Assembly: GCA_020216925.1 (NCBI GenBank)
Contig: JAIWOL010000074.1
Span: 1 to 10,000 of the forward strand
Direction: 5' to 3'
Origin: Thiobacillus sp.
GTDB taxonomy: Bacteria > Pseudomonadota > Gammaproteobacteria > Burkholderiales > Thiobacillaceae
Length of the DNA: 10,000 nucleotides
Shown one piece after another: positions 1-10,000 of this stretch. The translations under genes and the position numbers were made by a program. Under the pieces are notes generated by a model, which saw nothing but the letters and a program-made list of their open reading frames with translations, was not told where the DNA came from and did no database searches. Each line of letters begins with the position of its first letter. Position 1 is the first letter of the stretch.

Positions 1-269
1 GACAGGGCATCGCAGGCCAGCGTCAATCGCGTGCGGCCGGCAGCATGCGCACTGTCACGCAACTGCATCAGCGCCAGGGCGTATGCCAGAACATCGTCCG
101 GCTTCAGTGCATCGGCCTGGCCAAAAGCCGGGCGGGCGGCGATGTCGGCCAGGGCTGCCAAGGCCGCCTCCACTGTCAGACAGGCCTCGGGCCGAAGCAT
201 GCCCCTCTTGGGCATGGGCAGGCCTGCCGGCTGGCGATGACGGGCATACAGAGTTTGCGTATCTGGCAC
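1..269 (-). CDS. Unidentified protein, N-terminal part (runs off the window)
   Basis: An open frame reads from a GTG at 269-267 to the window edge without a stop, giving 89 codons. The start is chosen because an AGGAGAG ribosome binding site lies about 7 bases upstream. No ATG occurs earlier in the frame; internal Met codons at about residues 19 and 24 are alternatives. The visible protein begins MPDTQTLYARHRQPAG and continues rich in Ala, Leu and Arg, with helical-looking stretches and no signal peptide or membrane segment. I do not recognise a family. A Rho-independent terminator lies just upstream, so this gene probably starts its own transcription unit. That it is a gene rests on the open frame plus the ribosome binding site; its function is unknown. 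Confidence 0.6.
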   Translation of the reverse strand, partial: MPDTQTLYARHRQPAGLPMPKRGMLRPEACLTVEAALAALADIAARPAFGQADALKPDDVLAYALALMQLRDSAHAAGRTRLTLACDAL

Positions 270-294
270 GACTCTCTCCTGTTGGGGCCCCTGC

Positions 295-319
295 AAAAAA
301 ACAAGGCCGGCCGGGCCTT
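295..319 (-). terminator. Rho-independent terminator after the lpxC unit
   Basis: Read on the minus strand, AAGGCC pairs with GGCCTT around a 5-base loop (stem arms 314-319 and 303-308). This is followed by G and then seven T residues (301-295). It lies about 70 bases past the stop of the small membrane protein gene and before the gene starting at 269, so it most likely ends the lpxC transcript. A second GC palindrome (GGCCGCGGCC, 323-332) sits directly upstream. Confidence 0.8.
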
Positions 320-391
320 AACGGCCGCGGCCTGGCAGGGCTTTAATTCGTACCACTATAGACAGGATTTATGTACCAGGTGTGACAACAC

Positions 392-574
392 TCAACGCAG
401 CACCAGCCGCTCCACCCCATAAAACAGCGCGGCGATCACGCCGACGACGAGCGCAAAGCGCAACACCCGGCCGATATGGCGGAGGTAAGCGCGGTTGCCG
501 GTAAACAGCCAGGCCAGACCGAGCGCCACCACTGCGACCAGGATGGCAACGATCAGCAGACGCAGGACGATCAT
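392..574 (-). CDS. Small two-helix membrane protein downstream of lpxC
   Basis: This 60-residue protein starts at an ATG (574-572) that overlaps the lpxC stop as ATGA, so it is probably translationally coupled to lpxC. Two hydrophobic stretches, about residues 3-24 and 38-54, are separated by a positively charged loop ([14 protein letters not shown]). This suggests a hairpin inner-membrane protein with the basic loop inside by the positive-inside rule. I do not recognise a named family. The tight coupling to lpxC is the only hint at a role, possibly at the inner membrane in envelope biogenesis, and that is inference. A terminator follows about 70 bases downstream. Confidence 0.7.
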
Positions 575-1488
575 GCCGCGGCGAGAGGGTGCAGGCGGAG
601 GTAGGCGGGCGGGGCGTCTTCTTCACGGGTGAAGCTGACGAGTTCCCAGGCTTCCTGGCGTTGCGACAGTTCGCGCAGCAGCGCGTTGTTGAGCGCATGA
701 CCCGACTTGTAGGCCTCGAAGCTGCCGATGATGGGATGGCCCAGCAGGTAGAGATCGCCAATGGCATCGAGCACCTTGTGTTTCACGAACTCGTCGTCGT
801 AGCGCAGGCCATCCTGGTTGAGCACCCGGTACTCGTCCATGACGATGGCGTTGTCGAGCGAGCCGCCAAGCGCGAGGCCGTTGTTGCGCAAATATTCGAC
901 CTCGTGCATGAAACCGAATGTGCGCGCGCGGGCAACTTCCTTGGTGTAGGCAGTGTCGGCAAAGTCGATGCTGACGGTCTTGCCGCTCCTGTCGAAGACG
1001 GGGTGCTTGAAATCGATGGTGAACTCGATCCTGAAGCCGTTGTGCGGTACGAAGCGAGCCCATTTGTCGTCATCCCTCACTTCGATGGGCTGCTTGATGC
1101 GCACGTATTTTTTCGCAGCCTCCTGCTCGACGATGCCGGCCGACTGAAGCAGAAAAACGAAAGGCGCGGACGAGCCGTCCATGATGGGAATCTCGGGGCC
1201 GGTGAGATCGACCAGGAGATTGTCGATGCCCAGGCCCGCGAGCGCGGACATGAGGTGCTCGACCGTGGACACCCTGGCCGGACCGGATTGCAAAAGGGAA
1301 CACAACCGGGTGTCGGTCACGAGAAAGGGATCGGCCTTGAGCTCCGCAGGCGGATCGAGGTCCATGCGACGAAAAACAATGCCGGTATCGGGTCCGGCCG
1401 GGCGCAGTGTCATCTCCACCTTGACGCCGGAGTGCAGGCCGACGCCAGTGGCAGTGACCGGGCTTTTGAGAGTGCGCTGTCTGATCAT
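571..1488 (-). CDS. lpxC: UDP-3-O-acyl-N-acetylglucosamine deacetylase
   Basis: LpxC is the zinc enzyme that removes the N-acetyl group from UDP-3-O-acyl-GlcNAc in the cytoplasm, the committed step of lipid A synthesis. From the ATG at 1488 the protein is 305 residues, the length of the E. coli enzyme, and begins [10 protein letters not shown] as the family does. Longer readings of the frame lack family similarity. The zinc and catalytic residues are all present: STVEHL (Glu77, His78), HKVLDAIGD (His237, Asp241) and the catalytic His264 in YKSGHALNN. The upstream ribosome binding site is weak. In related genomes lpxC directly follows ftsZ; here 2.4 kb separates them, so it probably needs its own promoter somewhere in 1489-2165, which I cannot place. 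The stop overlaps the next gene by four bases. Confidence 0.97.
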
Positions 1489-1792
1489 CTCGGCTGATTC
1501 AGGAATGAAGTGTAATTTTGCGTTACGCCGTTTGCGCGGGCGGGATACGCGTGCATCCCCGCTTTTTTGACCGGCCAGTCGAAATTGCAGAAATGCGCTA
1601 CACACACCTCACCCGACTAGAACGATATCAGATTTACACCATGAAGCAGGCAGGCACAAGCAAAGCGAGATAAGCCATGTGCCGGAACGAAACGCATCGG
1701 CCATCATCTATCGGCAGGGAGCTGCTCTATCCAGAAAATGGCAAGAAAATGGGGTCACCCATTAGCCGACCGTAATCAAGCGCGAACACCTT

Positions 1793-1826
1793 CCCGCCCA
1801 CCTTTTTTTGATGGCGGGTTTTCTTT
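1793..1826 (+). terminator. Terminator-like hairpin facing the plus direction
   Basis: CCCGCC (1793-1798) pairs with GGCGGG (1813-1818) around a 14-base loop that itself contains seven T residues. The stem is followed by TTTTCTTT (1819-1826). This has the form of a Rho-independent terminator for plus-strand transcripts, yet no plus-strand gene lies upstream. It may end antisense transcription or be a leftover from an acquired segment. The stem is only 6 bp, so the call is tentative. Confidence 0.45.
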
Positions 1827-2082
1827 GCACGACCGTGCTGCATCCTGCCTTGTTGTTTCAGGCCGAACCCGTTTCCTCGATGCTGGCTACGACCGAGTCG
1901 TGCCTGCCACCCATATGGATCAAGCGGTGTGCGATGAACTGCCCCCGCCCTGGCGGAACCCCGCCCCAGAGAAACCTTGGTGCCGCCGAAGTGTCCGGGC
2001 AAAGATCACAGATCCGTGGCTCGCGTTTCCGCGTCCAGTCCCCAATTGGCTCACCCGGCAGACGGCCCGGTGCAACAACACA

Positions 2083-2163
2083 GGTGGTGACGGCAAGGTC
2101 TCCACTCAGACACACTGGTTCAAGCCCAGACCCTATTGCTGGCTAACCTGCCGTCACCAAACC
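2083..2163. repeat. Long imperfect inverted repeat at the transposase 3' end
   Basis: GGTGACGGCA (2086-2095) is exactly complementary in inverted order to TGCCGTCACC (2149-2158). The stem extends outward as GGT/ACC across a two-base bulge (2083-2085 with 2161-2163) and inward by three pairs after a one-base bulge. The loop of about 50 bases holds a smaller CTGG/CCAG hairpin. The outer arm ends two bases from the transposase stop at 2166, so this structure probably belongs to the insertion element, as an end or as part of a structured RNA. Confidence 0.6.
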
Positions 2164-2165
2164 GT

Positions 2166-3177
2166 TCAGGCGAAACAGCGCTTCACATCGAAAGGCTGTC
2201 CCTCCTTCAGCATGTGGTAACTCGCCCGCGCCAGCTTGTGCGCCAGTGCCTTGGTTGCCACGATGCTGTTCGTTTTGGCTTTCTTCCGCTCGAAGAAGCG
2301 CCGTGCCTCGTCGTTGAAGCGACGGGCGAAGTTCGCCGCTTCGATGAACGCCCACACCAGATAGGCGTTGCCGTTCTTGGTATTGCATTCGCCTTTCTTC
2401 CTGCCGTTGGAGTAGCGGGCGCTGTCCACACAACGGGCATAGGAAGCGAAGTTGCCGACCCGGGCGAAGCGGGTGACGTCGCCCGTCTCCAGCATGATGA
2501 CGATGGCCAGCACCTCGCCAATGCCGGGGATGCTTTTAAGCCGAACATAGTCCGGGCGCAGTTTCGCGCCCTCCAGCAGACGCGCCTCGAGCCGCCCGAT
2601 TTCCAGGTTCAGCGTGGCGATGACGGCGAGGTTGGCCTGCACCGCCAACGCGACATCCGCGGCGAGTCCGGGCGTGCCGATGTCGCTGGGGGCGAGCCGC
2701 TTGATGGCCGCGGCGGACGGACGCGACCCGGTCGATCGGGCCAGGATGTTCTCTACCGCCAGCACATGCTGGGTACGCGAGCGCACGAGCTGGACGCGCT
2801 TTCTGGCCAGATCGCGCAAGGCGCGCTCGGCGGGCGGATGGATATAGCCAGTGGGCAGGATGCCCAGCCGCAGCATGTGCGCCAGGTGGGCGGCGTCGGT
2901 CTCGTCGTCGCTGTGCTTCAAACCGTCGTAGCGTTTCATGGCGACGGTGTTGGCGAGCTTGACGGCATAGCCTTCGGCCATCAGGCCGTCAACCAGCCAG
3001 TACCAGTTGTAGGGATTCGACGACTACGCCTGTCAGTTCGTCGCGGTGCGGCGCAAGCAGCGCCAGTATCGTCGAAAGATCGTTGGGGCAGCACCGGCTG
3101 AGCAGCACCTTGTCCGTCTCGTCCGTCACCACGACCACGCTATTGTTCGAATGCAGGTCTATGCCACAAAATCTCAT
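2166..3177 (-). pseudogene. IS110-family transposase, broken by a frameshift
   Basis: IS110 transposases carry a RuvC-like DEDD domain and a C-terminal Transposase_20 domain with a catalytic serine, and recombine DNA guided by an element-encoded RNA. The start is ATG 3177, preceded by AAAGGAGG. The first 55 codons contain GIDLHS (Asp7) and VVVES (Glu54). The frame then shifts near 3013-3019 and would stop at 2989. The second frame continues as YNWYWLVDG, then LKHSDDETDA (the paired Asp residues), the helix-hairpin-helix-like IPGIG, and YSNGRKKG with the probable catalytic Ser, ending at 2166. Rejoined, it is about 336 residues, normal for the family. Family members usually read ESTYNWYW, so a two-base deletion is likely. 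The element is probably inactive unless the frame is bypassed. Confidence 0.9.
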
Positions 3178-3190
3178 CTCGGCCTCCTTT

Positions 3191-3227
3191 GAGTAAAAGA
3201 ACAAAGTTCGCACTTCGCTTTTTACTC
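3191..3227. repeat. Hairpin upstream of the transposase start
   Basis: GAGTAAAA (3191-3198) and TTTTACTC (3220-3227) form an 8 bp stem. Inside is a second small hairpin, GAAC/GTTC, at 3199-3202 and 3206-3209. It lies just upstream of the transposase ribosome binding site, in the 5' noncoding region where the IS110 subgroup of this family encodes its bridge RNA. It may be part of such an RNA or an element end. The structure is seen; the role is inferred. Confidence 0.5.
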
Positions 3228-3329
3228 CTCCGCCTCACAGCGGTGGGAGGTCGGCTAGATGATTCTCAGACACCATTTAACGCCATTCGGGCTGAGCGCG
3301 AAACCAACCCGCAAGACATGGTTCGGCGC

Positions 3330-3345
3330 CCGCCGCAAGCGGCGG
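3330..3345. repeat. GC-rich hairpin after the GDCCVxC gene
   Basis: CCGCCGC and GCGGCGG form a perfect 7 bp stem around AA, 11 bases past the stop codon of the small cysteine-rich gene. No T run follows on the minus strand, so it is not a standard Rho-independent terminator. It could still protect an mRNA end or mark a junction. Confidence 0.4.
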
Positions 3346-3356
3346 CAACGGGCGTA

Positions 3357-3578
3357 TCAGCCCCCGCAGCAACCGCCCTTGCCGCGTTCCTGGATCGGCG
3401 GGCACGGCACGGTGCCGTAGGAGCAGTACACGCAGCAGTCACCCGGCTTGGGCTTGAGCACGGCGTGACACTGCTCGCACTCGTAGAACCACTGGCAGGC
3501 GTCCGTCGGCATCGTCTCGGTCTTGGCGTGGCCGCACTCGGGACAGGTCAGCGTCGATTGCAGGATTACCGCAGTCAT
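3357..3578 (-). CDS. GDCCVxC-family cysteine-rich small protein
   Basis: This 73-residue protein carries the signature GDCCVYCSYG at residues 46-55, followed by TVPCPP. That matches the family known as GDCCVxC domain (seleno)proteins, in which one of the paired cysteines can be selenocysteine; here all are Cys codons. There are 11 cysteines: CPEC (12-15) and CEQC (34-37) look like a zinc-ribbon pair, Cys28 is isolated, then Cys48, 49, 52 and 59, and a C-terminal CC at 70-71. It has no signal peptide or membrane segment, so it should be cytoplasmic. The ATG (3578-3576) overlaps the stop of a merP remnant by four bases and has a GGGAG site in front. The mer context suggests binding or handling of mercury or another soft metal. 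The biochemical function of the family is not known to me. Confidence 0.85.
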   Translation of the reverse strand: MTAVILQSTLTCPECGHAKTETMPTDACQWFYECEQCHAVLKPKPGDCCVYCSYGTVPCPPIQERGKGGCCGG

Positions 3579-3664
3579 TTGGCGGCTCCCGCCAACGTGG
3601 CCGGATAACCGGCGTCCCGGGTGGCGCGGGTGAGGGTCTCGACGTTCGTCTGCGCATCATCGAA
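3575..3664 (-). pseudogene. merP: merP C-terminal remnant (mercury-binding protein)
   Basis: The last 29 codons of a MerP-like gene are present, reading FDDAQTNVETLTRATRDAG, then YPATLAGAAK and a stop. MerP is a periplasmic HMA-fold protein that passes Hg(II) to MerT, and its C-terminus characteristically has a ..DAGYP.. motif after an FDD segment and a helix. The signal peptide and GMTCxxC metal site are missing. Similarity ends at 3664, right at the start of a tandem repeat (3669-3690). The stop overlaps the start of the GDCCVxC gene as ATGA, so the two were once cotranslated in a mer operon. The identification rests on a short stretch but fits the neighbour well. Confidence 0.75.
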
Positions 3665-3668
3665 CGAG

Positions 3669-3690
3669 CACAATAAAGGCACAATAAAGG
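3669..3690. repeat. 11-bp tandem duplication
   Basis: CACAATAAAGG occurs twice in direct tandem (3669-3679 and 3680-3690). It sits exactly where merP similarity ends and the REP-like palindrome begins, which suggests a rearrangement junction. Confidence 0.8.
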
Positions 3691-3752
3691 GGTCAGGTCT
3701 TGCAATAATGCATTTCAGTTGAGCCCGCGTGTTGCAATACAAGACCGGTCCC
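3690..3752. repeat. REP-like imperfect palindrome
   Basis: GGGGTCAGGTCTTGCAATAA (from about 3689) and, in inverted order, TTGCAATACAAGACCGGTCC (3732-3751) form an imperfect palindrome around a spacer of about 25 bases. Sequences of the form AAGACCTGACCCC are typical flanks of REP-associated (RAYT) transposase elements in proteobacteria. No RAYT gene is present here, so this would be a stranded noncoding copy. Confidence 0.5.
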
Positions 3753-3780
3753 TATTTTTGAGACTTGATCCCTATTTTGA
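3749..3780. repeat. Near-identical direct repeat beside the lpxC fragment
   Basis: TCCCTATTTTTGA (3749-3761) and TCCCTATTTTGA (3769-3780) are direct repeats differing by one T. The second copy abuts the first base of the lpxC-like fragment, so the pair marks the break point of that fragment. Confidence 0.65.
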
Positions 3781-3855
3781 TCTCCACCTTGACGCAGGAG
3801 TGCAAGCCTGCGCCGGTGGCAGTGGCCGGGCTTTTGGGGGGCGCTGTCTGATCAT
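3780..3855 (-). pseudogene. lpxC: Decayed 5' fragment of a second lpxC copy
   Basis: Read on the minus strand from ATG 3855, this 76-base stretch aligns with the first 77 bases of the intact lpxC (1412-1488). By eye there are 8 substitutions and one single-base deletion (about 88% identity). The deletion lies in a run of six G/C after codon 5 (MIRQR) and shifts the frame, giving a 27-codon reading that stops at 3772. Restoring one base recovers the lpxC-like reading KSPATATGAGLHS. Similarity ends abruptly at 3780 at a repeat. The fragment starts about 90 bases after the ftsZ stop, the usual place of lpxC, so it is probably the relic of the original locus or of a partial duplication. Confidence 0.88.
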
Positions 3856-3944
3856 TTCGTCATTTTGGCCTTTGGCATAGGCAACGCGCCGAATGCGCGC
3901 GTGCCGGGTTGTGGCCGGCGCAGGCGGATTCGGTTCGTGCCATC

Positions 3945-5090
3945 TCAGTCTGCCTGTTTGCGCAGGAAGGCCGGGATGTCCAGGGTGTCAATGCCGGAAT
4001 CGGCCATCGCCTGGATGGTGCGGCTGCGGCGGTTGATCATCACGCTGGGCAGTTCTTCGCCTGGGTCGGCCATCATCGGCACGTTGTCGGTGCCGGTCTT
4101 GATGATCTGCATGGGACGCGATTGCTGGCGGGCAACGGGGTTGCCAAGGCCGGTGGCGACCATGGTTACGCGCAGGGCGTCTTCCATGCTGTCGTCGAGC
4201 ACCTGGCCGACGATGACGGTGGCTTCCTCGGCGGTGAATTCCTTGATCGTGTTCATCACGTCGTGGATTTCGCGCATCTTCACGCTGGACGATGCAGTGA
4301 TGTTGACGAGGATGCCGCGTGCGCCGCGCAGGTCGACCGATTCGAGCAGCGGGCTGGCCACGGCTTGCTCGGCAGCAATCCTGGCGCGGTTTTCGCCGCT
4401 GGCCTGCGCCGAACCCATCATCGCCATGCCCATTTCGCTCATTACGGTGCGCACGTCGGCGAAGTCGACGTTGACCAGGCCGGGGCAGTTGATGACTTCG
4501 GCAATGCCGCCGACCGCGCCATGCAGCACGTTGTTGGCGGCCTTGAAGGCATCGAGCATGGACACGTCTTCGCCCAGTACCTGCATCAGCTTTTCGTTGG
4601 GGATGATGATGAGCGAATCGACATGCCGCGCCAGCGCCTCGATGCCGGCGTTGGCGGCGCGCACACGTCTGCCTTCGAACATGAAAGGCTTGGTCACCAC
4701 GGCTACGGTGAGGATGCCAAGCTCCTTGGCGACTTCGGCCACCACGGGGGCGGCGCCGGTGCCGGTGCCGCCGCCCATGCCCGCGGTGATGAACAGCATG
4801 TCGGCGCCGTCGATCAGTTCGGCGATGCGCTCGCGGTCTTCCAGCGCGGCTTCGCGGCCGATTTCGGGGTTGGCGCCCGCGCCCAGACCCTTGGTTACGC
4901 CGTTGCCGAGCTGCAGCTGTATCTTGGCCTGGTTGCGTTTCAGCGCCTGCGCGTCGGTGTTGATGGCGATGAATTCCACGCCATTCAAGCCCGAGGCGAT
5001 CATGTGATCGACCGCGTTGCCGCCGCAGCCGCCCACGCCGATCACTTTGATCACTGCATCCTGAGTATCCACGTCCATCAGTTCAAACAT
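3945..5090 (-). CDS. ftsZ: Cell division protein FtsZ
   Basis: FtsZ is the tubulin-like GTPase that polymerises into the Z ring at midcell. The 381-residue protein has the N-terminal nucleotide-binding GVGGCGGNAV (18-27), the tubulin signature GGGTGTG (106-112), the T7 synergy loop NVDFADVR (207-214, with Asp209 and Asp212), and a variable linker ending in the conserved tail DIPAFLRKQAD that binds FtsA and ZipA. All catalytic features look intact. The ATG at 5090 has a strong AAAGGAGG site nine bases upstream. A 135-base gap separates it from ftsA, long enough for an extra promoter or an mRNA processing site, in keeping with the higher FtsZ level cells need. Downstream, the normal lpxC is replaced by a fragment and an accessory insert. 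Confidence 0.98.
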   Translation of the reverse strand: MFELMDVDTQDAVIKVIGVGGCGGNAVDHMIASGLNGVEFIAINTDAQALKRNQAKIQLQLGNGVTKGLGAGANPEIGREAALEDRERIAELIDGADMLFITAGMGGGTGTGAAPVVAEVAKELGILTVAVVTKPFMFEGRRVRAANAGIEALARHVDSLIIIPNEKLMQVLGEDVSMLDAFKAANNVLHGAVGGIAEVINCPGLVNVDFADVRTVMSEMGMAMMGSAQASGENRARIAAEQAVASPLLESVDLRGARGILVNITASSSVKMREIHDVMNTIKEFTAEEATVIVGQVLDDSMEDALRVTMVATGLGNPVARQQSRPMQIIKTGTDNVPMMADPGEELPSVMINRRSRTIQAMADSGIDTLDIPAFLRKQAD

Positions 5091-5225
5091 TTGCTGCCTC
5101 CTTTAATGCCAAAAAAAACCACACTCAAAAATCTTTGACGTGTTTGCCGCGATACCCCTGGGCATCGGGCACGACCGCCAAAACCTGTTTCGACGCTGGG
5201 CACGCTCGTATGCGTCGCGCCGGCG

Positions 5226-6461
5226 TCAGAAATTCCCCTTGAACCAGTTCTTCATGCGCGCCAGCACGTCCTTGAAGCTGTTGCCCGACAGTTTGGGCGC
5301 GTCGCGTCCGCGCGCTTCCAGTCCGGCCATCAGCAGGCCCATGCAGGTGGCGTAACGCGGGTTGTGCATGACGTCGGCCAGTCCGCCTTCGTAGCGCGGC
5401 CAGCCCAGCCGCACCGGCATATGGAAAACTTCCTCGCCCAGTTCGACCATGCCCTGCATGCCCGCCGAGCCGCCGGTGATGACGATGCCGGACGACAGGA
5501 GCTCTTCGAATCCGCTGCGGCGCAGTTCGGCCTGTACCAGCGAATACAGTTCTTCCATGCGCGGTTCGATGAATTCGGCCAGGGTCTGGCGGGAAAGCGT
5601 GCGCGGCGGCCGGTCGCCGATGCCGGGCACTTCGATCATGTCGCGCGCGTCGGCCAGTTGCCGCAGCGCGCAGCCGTACTGGATCTTGATGTCTTCGGCT
5701 TCCTTGGGCGGGGTGCGCAGCGCCACCGCGATGTCGTTGTTGACCTGGTCGCCGGCTACCGGGATCACGGCGGTGTGACGGATCGCGCCGTTGGTGAACA
5801 CGGCGATGTCGGTGGTGCCGCCGCCGATATCGATCAGGCACACGCCGAGTTCCTTTTCGTCCTCGGTGAGCACCGCCAGCGCCGACGCCAGCGGTTGCAG
5901 CACCAGATCGCCGACTTCGAGGCCGCAGCGGCGCACGCACTTGATGATGTTCTGTGCGGCCGATACCGCGCCGGTGACGATGTGCACCTTCACTTCGAGG
6001 CGCACGGCGCTCATGCCGAGCGGGTCGCGCACGTCTTCCTGGCCGTCGACGATGAATTCCTGCGGGATGGTGTGCAGGATCTGCTGGTCGGTGGGAATAT
6101 TCACGGCGCGGGCGGTTTCCACTACCCGGTCGACGTCCATCTGGGAGATTTCCCTGTCCTTGATGGCGAACATGCCGTGGGAGTTGAAGCTCTTGATATG
6201 GCTGCCGGCGATGCCGGTGTACACCTCGCGGATTTTGCAGTCGGCCATCAGCTCGGCTTCTTCCAGCGCGCGCTGGATGGCGTTGACGGTGGCCTCGATG
6301 TTGACCACGACGCCGCGGCGCAGCCCGCGCGACGGCGACGAGCCCATGCCGATGATGTCGAGGCCACCCTCGTCGTTGACCTCGGCGACGATGCAGACGA
6401 TCTTCGAGGTGCCGATGTCGAGGCCGACGACAAGGTTTTTGGGATCTCTTGGCTTGCTCAT
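5226..6461 (-). CDS. ftsA: Cell division protein FtsA
   Basis: FtsA is an actin-like ATPase that tethers FtsZ filaments to the inner membrane and recruits later divisome proteins. The 411-residue protein shows the actin-fold motifs: phosphate 1 GLDIGTSK (13-20), the 1C subdomain typical of FtsA (about 85-160, in place of the actin 1B), phosphate 2 LIDIGGGTTDIAV (209-221) and the adenosine motif ITGGSAGMQG (328-337). It ends with the amphipathic membrane-targeting helix MKNWFKGNF (403-411). The ATG at 6461 overlaps the ftsQ stop as ATGA and has only a weak ribosome binding site, so translation is probably coupled to ftsQ. Length and motifs are normal for the family. Confidence 0.97.
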   Translation of the reverse strand: MSKPRDPKNLVVGLDIGTSKIVCIVAEVNDEGGLDIIGMGSSPSRGLRRGVVVNIEATVNAIQRALEEAELMADCKIREVYTGIAGSHIKSFNSHGMFAIKDREISQMDVDRVVETARAVNIPTDQQILHTIPQEFIVDGQEDVRDPLGMSAVRLEVKVHIVTGAVSAAQNIIKCVRRCGLEVGDLVLQPLASALAVLTEDEKELGVCLIDIGGGTTDIAVFTNGAIRHTAVIPVAGDQVNNDIAVALRTPPKEAEDIKIQYGCALRQLADARDMIEVPGIGDRPPRTLSRQTLAEFIEPRMEELYSLVQAELRRSGFEELLSSGIVITGGSAGMQGMVELGEEVFHMPVRLGWPRYEGGLADVMHNPRYATCMGLLMAGLEARGRDAPKLSGNSFKDVLARMKNWFKGNF

Positions 6462-7255
6462 GTTGTGCTCGGTTGCGCAGGGGCGACGGGGCCGCGTGGT
6501 CTGAAGCTCGCCGGCTGCCGGTTGTCGGGCATCCGGACTGCAAAGCCGTCCGGATAACGAAGGTCGACCGTGTGCGGCGCAACGGCGGCGATGGGGCTGC
6601 CATCCGCTGCCTGCGTGGCACCGAACAGGCGGGGGTAGAGTGCGACGAAGCGGGCGAGCCGCGCGTCGGTGCTGTCACGGCCCAGCGCGATGTGCATGCC
6701 GGAATCGAGGCGCATCCGCCAGGCGCGGCGCGGCGTGAGGCGCAGTTCGTCGATCTTGAATCCCAGCGGGGCCAGGGTCTGGCTGTGGCGCAGAAAGGTT
6801 TCGACCACTTCGCTGCTGGTGTCTTCCGGCCCCCACAGGCGGGGCAATCTGTCGGATACGGCGGCCACGAACACGTTGCCTTCGCGGTCGACCAGCGCGT
6901 CGTCGTTCCAGCGCGCAAGGGGCACGTGCTCGACCAGCGATACCACCAGGGTATCGGGCCAGCGCCGCTCGACCCGCGCCTCGCGCACCCAGGGCAGTTT
7001 TTCCAGGCTTTCGCGCACGCGTTCGATGTCGACGGTGAAGAAGGTGCCGCGCACTTTGCGCTCGGCGACCAGGCGGAGCTGCGCTTCGGTGACGTGTGCC
7101 ACCGGCGTTTTCACTTCCAGAGTGGCAAGCGCGAACCACGGGCGCGCGACCAGCCAGCTGGCCGCGCCATAGGCGAACAGGCCGAGCGCGCCCCAGGTCA
7201 GCACGCGGGCGACCTGGCACAGCGGATGCGCATCGAACTCGGCGTTGTCGCTCAC
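6458..7255 (-). CDS. ftsQ: Cell division protein FtsQ
   Basis: FtsQ is a bitopic inner-membrane protein that links early and late divisome proteins through the FtsQBL complex. I choose the GTG at 7255: it overlaps the ddl stop as GTGA and has GGAG eight bases upstream. A longer GTG start at 7282 lacks a good site. This gives 265 residues with a short cytoplasmic tail, one transmembrane helix (about 18-37), a POTRA domain (about 43-112, ending [12 protein letters not shown]) and a C-terminal beta domain. The last 25 or so residues are Pro/Arg-rich ([18 protein letters not shown]) and probably disordered. FtsQ sequences diverge widely, but position between ddl and ftsA makes the call firm. Confidence 0.94.
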
Positions 7256-8181
7256 AGCGTCTGCTCCAGAATGGCAAGGCACAGGGCGTCGAAATCCATG
7301 CCGTTGGCACGTGCCGCCATCGGCACAAGACTGTGGTCGGTCATTCCGGGCGAAGTGTTGGCTTCGAGCAGATAGGGCCGGCCGGCGCGATCGAGCATGA
7401 TGTCGATGCGCCCCCAGCCACGCCCGCCCAGCTGGCGGAAGGCGTCGAGCGCCAGTTGCCGCAGCGCCTGTTCTTCTGCATCCGGCAGGCCGGCTGGGCA
7501 GTGGTATTGCGTGTCGTCGCGCAGGTATTTGGCTTCGAAATCGTAAAAGGCGCGTTCCTTGGCGGGTTCCAGGCGGATCAACGGCAACGCCGCGTGGCCG
7601 AGGATGGCGGCGGTGAATTCCGGGCCGTCGATGAATTTTTCCGCCAGCACCAGGGGGTCGTGTTCGGCGGCGGTTTCAAAGGCGGCCCTGAGCGCGCCCG
7701 GCTCGGTGACCTTGCTCATGCCGATGCTGGAACCCTCGCGCGCCGGTTTCACGAAGACGGGCAAACCGAGCTGGCGTTCGACCGCCGCAAAATCGCTGTC
7801 TGCGGTGAGGATGGCCCAGTCGGCGGTGGGCAGGCCGGCGGCGCGCCACAGCAGCTTGGTGCGCCACTTGTCCATGCCAAGCGCGGACGCCATGACGCCG
7901 CTGCCGGTGTAGGGGATGCCCAGCAGTTCGAGCGCGCCCTGCATGCAGCCGTCCTCGCCGTAGCGCCCGTGCAGGGCAATGAAGACGCGGTCGAATTCGC
8001 CACTGATGAGGTCGCCGAGGTTGCGGGTGGCGGGATCGAAGGCATGCGCGTCGATGCCCTGGCGCACGAGCGCGGCGAGCACCGCGTTGCCGCTGTTGAG
8101 CGACACCGGGCGCTCGGCCGAGGTGCCGCCCAGCATGACCGCGACTTTTCCGAAGCGTTTCGCGGTTTCGATCTGATTCAC
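7252..8181 (-). CDS. ddl: D-alanine--D-alanine ligase
   Basis: Ddl joins two D-alanines with ATP to make the dipeptide that MurF adds to the peptidoglycan precursor; it acts in the cytoplasm. The GTG at 8181 overlaps the murB stop as GTGA and has GGAG seven bases upstream, giving 309 residues (E. coli DdlB has 306). Visible ATP-grasp motifs are [11 protein letters not shown] (18-28, with the Glu that binds the first D-Ala), HGRYGEDG (71-78), [10 protein letters not shown] (149-158), YDFEAKYL (213-220, whose last Tyr is the residue typical of D-Ala-D-Ala rather than D-lactate ligases), RIDIMLD (258-264) and [10 protein letters not shown] (272-281). Open sequence further upstream in this frame runs inside murB and is not part of the gene. 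Confidence 0.96.
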
Positions 8182-9152
8182 TGCCGTTCTCCAATAATGC
8201 GCACTTCGCGGATCAGCCGCACGTTGGTGCGCGCTTCCACGGTGTCTTCCACGTGTTCGATCAGGCGCTCGATGTCGGTCGCGGTGGCGTTGCCGGTATT
8301 GACGATGAAATTGGCGTGCTTCTCCGACACCTGCGCGCCGCCGATCGCATGTCCTTTGAGCCCGCAGGCTTCGATCAGCCGCGCGGCGTGGTCGCCCGGC
8401 GGATTGCGGAACACCGAGCCGGCGTTGGGCATTTGCAGGGGCTGCGAGGCAATGCGCTTTTGCAGCAGCGCCTTGATGGCTTCGCGCGACGCCGCGCCGT
8501 CGCCCCTGTCCAGCCGGAACCAGCCGCCGACGAACCATTCCTGCTGCGGCTGTTTCAGGGCCACATGGCGGTAGCTGGTGAAATAGTCGGCAGGCAGGCG
8601 CTCGTTGAGCTGACCCTGGCGGTCGAGCGTTTCAACCTGCACCACCTTGTCCCAGGTTTCGCTTCCGTAACACCCGGCATTCATCGCCAGCACGCCGCCT
8701 ACGGTGCCTGGAATACCGGCCCAGAATTCTCCGCCGACGAGGTCGTGGCGGGCGGCAAAACGCGCGAGTTTGGGCGAGGCGACGCCGGCCTGGGCATAGA
8801 TGAGCGCGGTGTCCCGATCAGCAGGCGGCGGCGGCAAACCCTGGGTGCGAAACTCGATCGATATTTTTTTCAGCACGCCGTGCAGCAGGATCACCACGCC
8901 GGACACGCCGCCATCGCGCACCAGCAGGTTGCTGCCCAGTCCGACCATGTGGATGTCTTCGAAGGGCGGCACCGAGCGCACCAGCCAGACCAGATCTTCG
9001 AGGTCGGCCGGAAGGTAGACGCGTTTGGCCGCGCCGCCCGCACGCCACGAGACGTGCTTTTTCATCGGTTCGTTGTAGAGGAATTCGCCGCGCAGCACCG
9101 GGCCGTTGCCGGCGGCGATATCGGGCTCGTTGATGCGCAGATCATGCCGCAC
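8178..9152 (-). CDS. murB: UDP-N-acetylenolpyruvoylglucosamine reductase
   Basis: MurB uses NADPH and bound FAD to reduce UDP-GlcNAc-enolpyruvate to UDP-MurNAc in the cytoplasm. I choose the GTG at 9152, preceded by GGAGG five bases upstream and overlapping murC by 11 bases; a TTG at 9176 would add eight residues but has no clear site. The 324-residue protein shows SWRAGG (35-40), the FAD-binding [12 protein letters not shown] (71-82), [19 protein letters not shown] (145-163), SYRH (193-196, catalytic Arg), [10 protein letters not shown] (242-251, proton-donating Ser) and the closing EVRIIG with the second catalytic acid. The GSVFRNP form followed directly by a short loop resembles the type II MurB group. 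Its stop overlaps the ddl start. Confidence 0.96.
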
Positions 9153-10000
9153 GGCTGCCTCCGATCGCAGGCGCAACCTGGCCGATGCTGCCAGCCCCCA
9201 TCACCAGCACCACGTCCCCATCGCGGGCCAGCTCGCCTATTGTCGCGGCCACGTCGGCCACCTGCTCGACGAACACCGGCTCGACCTTGCCCGCCACCCG
9301 CACCGCGCGGGCGAGCGCGCGGCCATCCGCAGCTACGATGGGCGTCTCGCCTGCGGGGTAGACGTCGGTCAACACCAGCGCGTCGACTTCGGACAGCACT
9401 TTGACGAAATCCTCGAAGCAGTCGCGGGTGCGCGTGTAGCGGTGCGGCTGGAAAGCCAGCACCAGACGGCGGCCGGGGAAGGCACCGCGCGCGGCGGCGA
9501 TGGTCGCGGCCATTTCCACGGGGTGGTGGCCGTAGTCGTCGACCAGACAATACTGTCCGCCGTCTTTCGCTGGCTGCTCGCCATAGCGCTGGAAGCGGCG
9601 ACCGACGCCGTGGAACTCGGCCAGCGCCCGCACGATGGCGGCGTCATCCGCGCCCACTTCGGTCGCCACCGCGATCGCGGCGAGCGCGTTGAGCACGTTA
9701 TGCATGCCGGGATGGTTGAGCACCACGTCGAGCCTGGCCAGGCCTTCACGCTCGACGCTGAAATGCATGCGGCCGGACGCGAAGCGCGGATTCAGCGCAC
9801 GCACCTGCGCAGCCTCGCTGAACCCATATGTCGTGATCGGCTTGGTGATGCGCGACAGGATCGACGCCACATGCGGATCGTCAATGCACAGCACCGCCAT
9901 CCCATAGAACGGCAGACGCTGGCAGAAATCGACGAAGGCGGTTTTGAGGCGCTCGAAATCGTGGCCGTAGGTGTCCATATGATCGGCATCGATGTTGGTG
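9142..10000 (-). CDS. murC: UDP-N-acetylmuramate--L-alanine ligase, C-terminal part
   Basis: MurC adds L-alanine to UDP-MurNAc, the first peptide step of peptidoglycan precursor synthesis, in the cytoplasm. About 286 codons are in the window; the start lies beyond it. The visible part begins in the central Mur ligase domain at [12 protein letters not shown], a conserved MurC stretch, then [13 protein letters not shown] (substrate-binding Asn and the join to the C-terminal domain), [11 protein letters not shown], and [16 protein letters not shown]. It ends in [12 protein letters not shown]. These motifs set it apart from MurD, MurE and MurF. The gene overlaps the murB start by 11 bases, so the two are probably coupled. 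In related clusters murG precedes it. Confidence 0.96.

Follow-up and report, generated by a model that had tools for sequence, protein, structure and literature searches.

Two lpxC starts downstream of ftsZ

The window analyzed here, a 10,000-nucleotide stretch of Thiobacillus DNA, belongs to a genome of 2.04 Mb in 196 contigs that is 84.6% complete. Its minus strand carries, in order, five genes that we take to be murC, murB, ddl, ftsQ and ftsA from their translations and order, followed by ftsZ, a decayed start of lpxC (the relic), an insert of about 2.3 kb, the complete lpxC and an ORF of 60 amino acids. LpxC, a drug target, catalyzes the committed step of lipid A synthesis. The features are listed below; G064 is the nearest relative as judged by LpxC (96%).

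571–1488, minus strand: intact lpxC, 305 amino acids plus stop, with no stops in frame (Pfam LpxC 380.5 bits; TIGR00325 408.5 bits, cut-off 187.25)
1412–1491, minus strand: the duplicated lpxC start in its functional copy (−3 to +77), from the repeat search and synteny with G064
1492–1724, plus strand: IS30-family left end with a truncated transposase start, its outer end abutting lpxC at −3
1745–3269, minus strand: IS110-family element with a broken transposase frame (2989–3213 and 2166–2981; NF033542 150 bits, cut-off 140; Pfam)
3357–3578, minus strand: gene of a small GDCCVxC-domain protein (NF041374 112.7 bits, cut-off 40)
3689–3779, plus strand: REP-like dispersed repeat beginning GGGGTCAGGTCTTGCAAT, its end meeting the broken end of the relic
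3780–3859, minus strand: relic of the lpxC start (−4 to +77), decayed and directly adjoining the native spacer
3860–3944, minus strand: native spacer between ftsZ and lpxC, of which G064 has a homolog (84.6% over 3780–3946)
3862–3867, minus strand: native −10-like hexamer of lpxC, CAAAAT here and TAAAAT in relatives
3945–5090, minus strand: ftsZ (Pfam Tubulin and FtsZ_C), 91.0% nucleotide identity to G064

The ATG of the relic (3855) lies 89 bp past the end of ftsZ at 3945 and 2,367 bp from that of the intact gene (1488). The second lpxC start that the original prediction had placed after ftsZ was recovered by a direct-repeat search, which paired 1412–1468 with 3780–3836 (57 nt, 89%) and extended this match by 1465–1492/3832–3859 (28 nt, 82%), and by BLAST of 1412–1492 against the relic region (88% identity, E = 1.0e-21). 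The homology is longer than the 76 coding bases initially recognized, covering 80 bases in all. The eight coding substitutions and the 1-bp deletion that had been described hold, to which a ninth substitution, at −1, has to be added; the deletion shifts the frame, so that the reading frame of the relic is lost. As also stated there, the sequences upstream of the two ATGs do not match.

When the 56 genomes of the genus, source included, were searched with an LpxC query protein started one codon upstream of the ATG (1491), 53 gave a match. The source genome has a single LpxC match, and positions 1–1411 of the window likewise match it once. One Thiobacillus genome contains a second LpxC-like gene, 36% identical (G029:C18:32042-32884). 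The search returned loci for 29 relatives, whose LpxC is 88–96% identical to the intact one; the stretch fetched for one of them (L008) is without ftsZ, and in all 28 others, which hold both genes, lpxC directly follows ftsZ at a spacing of 74–256 bp and has one start. In a betaproteobacterial contig (L070), 3,088 bp separate the ftsZ match from the lpxC match, compared with about 1 kb in Burkholderia-group loci. Relatives sharing the fragment had been named as the result that would speak against the original prediction; among 107 sequences, the window plus 106 fetched genus or GTDB loci in which some genomes occur twice, a further lpxC 5' end ahead of lpxC was detected in the window alone (E ≤ 1e-4). 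This test covered up to 1.5 kb of upstream DNA in the genus loci and up to 5 kb in the GTDB loci, and three further loci were skipped as they start too near lpxC or inside it.

The G064 locus aligns to the window in three segments, 3944–10000, 3780–3946 and 1–1492, and 81 of its bases (9334–9414 of L116) are matched twice, by the second and the third of these. Synteny on the ftsZ side thus runs into the relic and that on the lpxC side resumes in the intact gene. With native linkage extending from upstream as far as the relic and from downstream as far as intact lpxC, the event amounts formally to an insertion accompanied by a duplication of 80 bp.

The two starts were aligned with those of 28 relatives, G064 among them, and compared at 81 columns. 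They have in common three states present in none of the 28 relatives. A single change, at a third codon position, is private to the intact start, and, setting aside the boundary column +78, eight substitutions plus the 1-bp deletion are private to the relic with respect to both the intact copy and G064; five of these eight lie at sites invariant in the 28 relatives. The relic base is also found in some relatives at −1 (4/28), +18 (18/28) and +48 (1/28), so these states could in part be old, and at +42 the relic agrees with G064, not with the intact copy. Trees place the relic and the intact start as sisters (UFBoot 99; FastTree 0.908), their main limit being the few columns available (77), with a terminal branch of 0.12–0.15 for the relic and of 0–0.007 for the intact start. 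In trees of the complete lpxC and ftsZ (29 sequences each), the source genome joins G064 (0.941 and 1.0, respectively). Both copies most likely come from one lineage, as argued by their sisterhood together with these two gene trees, and one of them is free of selection: the relic has lost both its frame and purifying selection, as expected of a pseudogene fragment.

Composition of the insert

The insert is a patchwork, largely of mobile DNA. Its lpxC-proximal part (1492–1724) is 85% identical to a stretch of G033, the frame of which begins with an HTH_38 domain and is 67% identical over its first 64 residues to the start of a G021 transposase. Alone, the truncated G033 frame scores far below the cut-off with both the IS630 (21.1 bits) and the IS30 (19.5 bits) models; the segment was assigned to the IS30 family because its full-length G021 relative scores 302.1 bits with the NCBIfam IS30 model (cut-off 80). 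The best alignments of the five genus copies reaching this end start at 1489, 1491, 1492, 1492 and 1493, the alignment of the G020 copy being only 53 nt long, which sets the IS end directly against lpxC at −3. Relatives of the transposase start occur in 4 of the 56 genomes, at five places, always on a contig other than that of the lpxC match of the same genome (G001 has no lpxC match). The IS30 stretch gave no match to plasmids and no second match in the source genome at its 84.6% completeness. An inverted IS30 left end was sought in 3270–3790 and the best candidate, 13/21, does not lie at 3779. Of the two borders of the insert, that at 1492 is a recognizable IS end, an IS30-family left end; at 3779 lies the REP-like repeat.

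The IS110-family element is 96% identical to a G063 copy over 1751–3269 and has one match in the source genome at E ≤ 1e-20. Elsewhere in this genome, a lone 76-bp stretch (G000:C113:15535-15610) is identical to the IS110 end (window 1748–1823). DNA homologous to the GDCCVxC gene is present in relatives, on other contigs, and no second match to it was found in the source genome (84.6% complete). No donor site emerged from the surroundings of the G064 copy, which matched the gene itself only, together with three weak matches of 68–73%. The first 23 bases of the REP-like repeat, with up to two mismatches, were found in 8 of the 56 genus genomes, source included, and a reversed-pattern control in 0 of 56; its extent to 3779 is our reading of the sequence. 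No transposase was seen by eye beside the REP-like copies among up to four longest ORFs at seven loci. Another, apparently dispersed repeat of the GCGTGGTTGTTG type, rich in inverted repeats, stands right after the ftsZ stop in the spacers of L006, L007, L010, L026 and L034; it was not seen in the ftsZ-lpxC spacer of the window.

Upstream region and codon usage of intact lpxC

A −10-like hexamer TAAAAT (TAGAAT in one case) ends six bases before the lpxC ATG in 27 of the 28 relatives (L006–L034) and is shifted by 1 nt in the remaining one; the T at −12 is present in 27/28. No −35 element is conserved upstream of the lpxC of these relatives. Given this spacing, the lpxC mRNA is predicted to be leaderless: a transcript from the native hexamer would possibly start at about the ATG. 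Inspection by eye of loci from other genera showed a comparable hexamer in several of them, about 30–45 bases upstream of lpxC. The literature searched contained, by title, nothing on a leaderless lpxC and nothing on lpxC of Thiobacillus.

Intact lpxC of the window is without the native hexamer and has the IS30-family end upstream instead. The promoter change put forward in the original prediction thus holds at the level of sequence, the IS end at −3 replacing the conserved TAAAAT, and the proposed change of place holds locally, as about 2.3 kb now stands in front of lpxC, but does not extend to the downstream side, where synteny is kept. A scan of 1400–4000 for sigma-70-type promoters returned no site, and the IS30 end contains weak −10-like hexamers only, with no −35. 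Intact lpxC would now be transcribed from within the insert or through it. The reading direction of ftsZ, of the GDCCVxC gene and of the IS110 transposase leads toward lpxC, and that of the IS30 transposase start leads away from it, so that read-through is as possible as a promoter in the IS30 end. The hairpin after ftsZ ranks 27th of 29 in the source, with a best local energy of −21.0 kcal/mol; four relatives lie at −21.5 to −19.2, so a weakened hairpin gives no evidence of a read-through route and was discarded as such.

Since the split from G064, lpxC has accumulated 61 private changes in the source lineage versus 32 in that of G064 (Tajima P = 0.0035, outgroup G070; about 0.028 after correction for the eight genes tested), and none of the seven other genes has a significant excess. 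The excess is synonymous (51 versus 25), amino-acid changes numbering 10 versus 7. Among the synonymous changes at third positions, those from G/C to A/T number 30 versus 12, a lean shared by murB (23 versus 11) and not clearly by ftsZ, ftsA, ftsQ, ddl and murC. The GC3 of lpxC, 0.797, is below that of all 28 relatives (minimum 0.819), and the GC3 of ftsZ is equal in the source and in G064 (0.838 and 0.837); the difference of lpxC minus ftsZ ranks the source only 3rd of 29. This pattern weakly fits a relaxed codon selection that might have followed the loss of the promoter.

Origin of the duplication

The event is real and ordinary in kind, and is best explained as a local duplication tied to mobile DNA: lpxC −4 to +77 was duplicated around the largely mobile insert, most likely after the split from G064. 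The upstream copy, which remained linked to ftsZ with its native spacer and promoter, has decayed, and the downstream copy is the start of a complete, conserved lpxC. This agrees with one possibility raised in the original prediction, an old partial duplication followed by decay, in view of the three states absent from the 28 relatives and the sisterhood of the copies. IS30-family elements duplicate 2–3 bp of their target, and a single transposition with target-site duplication is ruled out, the flanking repeat of 80 bp being too long.

Joining of two sites by an IS duplicates the intervening DNA and leaves the IS only between the copies (PMC13423834). According to the accessible part of that study, such joining is the commonest mode of IS-associated amplification in laboratory-evolved isolates, and its ends can lie in essential genes. 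In the window, the G064 stretch is likewise doubled with the insert, and thus IS DNA, between its copies. We regard it as probable that an IS-junction duplication of this type took place within the lineage at the lpxC start, the insert being rebuilt later and the relic decaying. The duplication would have arisen at the insertion itself, by 'locus-joining': an insert containing the IS30-family element would have been joined to lpxC at −3 by one end and at about +77 by its other side. Borders at these two positions would yield the observed structure in one step and keep the gene complete; the relic would have been stillborn, without ever having formed a complete second gene, and lpxC, which is essential, would at no time have been lost. 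The IS110 element and the REP-like repeat may reflect later insertions and deletions that rebuilt the insert. With no inverted IS30 end at 3779, a one-event model leans on one end only. Also against it, the 80-bp segment is far shorter than the amplicons cited in the accessible text of that study (17,585 and 31,028 bp), the relic matches G064 at +42 and shares its bases at −1, +18 and +48 with some other relatives, and the IS30 end yielded no sigma-70-type promoter.

A two-step course, which we consider unlikely, would start from a larger tandem duplication, comprising lpxC and the genes after it and carrying an IS30-family element at its junction. A deletion, possibly helped by IS110 or the REP-like repeats, would then have reduced the upstream copy to its first 77 coding bases. 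Synteny, shared states and trees speak for it exactly as for the junction duplication, the IS end could be the residue of a replicative IS event of the kind outlined in the accessible part of PMC13423834, and the GDCCVxC gene could be what is left of the segment that was lost. However, it requires the extra deletion, and window 1–1411, LpxC, the GDCCVxC gene and the IS30 stretch all lack a second match in the source genome, itself 84.6% complete.

That intact lpxC is an import from a different lineage that took the place of a broken native gene, the replacement or rescue envisaged in the original prediction, is very improbable. The divergence of the relic, its agreement with G064 at +42, the excess of private changes and the low GC3 would fit such an import, but the lpxC tree does not conflict with that of the neighboring ftsZ as horizontal replacement would imply, both joining the source to G064; the relic and the intact start are sisters, downstream synteny is native, the excess is synonymous and the GC3 contrast with ftsZ ranks only 3rd of 29. 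Foreign replacement is thus rejected by the gene trees and the sister position of the relic, and is largely refuted. An assembly artefact, of two strains or of two places joined through IS110, might be suspected from an IS lying mid-insert in an assembly of 196 contigs, but we hold it to be highly unlikely: the IS110 stretch matches the source genome once, plus the 76-bp end fragment, the frameshift and the changes at invariant sites mean that the relic is not the working lpxC of another strain, and the relic/ftsZ and IS30/lpxC junctions lie outside IS110 and would both stand even if that element were misjoined.

Returning to the IS-junction duplication, the closest known counterparts are the non-canonical 'hemi-flanked' or 'unflanked' IS duplications (Yelin and Kishony 2026, PMC13423834), which also have IS DNA between the copies and can border in essential genes; compared with those described in the accessible text, the present one spans 80 bp, has a decayed upstream copy and one recognizable IS end, and stands in an environmental genome. 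Mobile DNA at lpxC is also known from Acinetobacter baumannii, where the insertions of ISAba11 and other IS reported in the accessible part of PMC8532902 inactivate the gene, whereas here lpxC is complete and its upstream region exchanged. Elements of the IS30 family can provide the gene that follows them with a promoter or with a −35 hexamer, as far as the accessible part of a review goes (PMC9330008); an IS30-family end likewise stands directly upstream of lpxC here, but no convincing outward promoter was found in it.

A further-reaching reading is tentative and somewhat doubtful: an 'unflanked' IS duplication that became fixed in nature, its two borders both falling within the initial 80 bp of an essential gene, would have shifted lpxC from a leaderless transcript to one started in mobile DNA or read through it, with codon usage relaxing afterwards in this lineage. 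If true, an essential gene with a leaderless transcript can survive, in one step, an insertion exactly at its start when the insertion brings a second gene start along. The locus is a natural, decayed IS-associated duplication bordering inside an essential gene, next to the laboratory-evolved isolates treated in the accessible part of PMC13423834, and the conserved promoter-like hexamer set against the lpxC start yields, for Thiobacillus, the testable prediction that the lpxC mRNA is leaderless.
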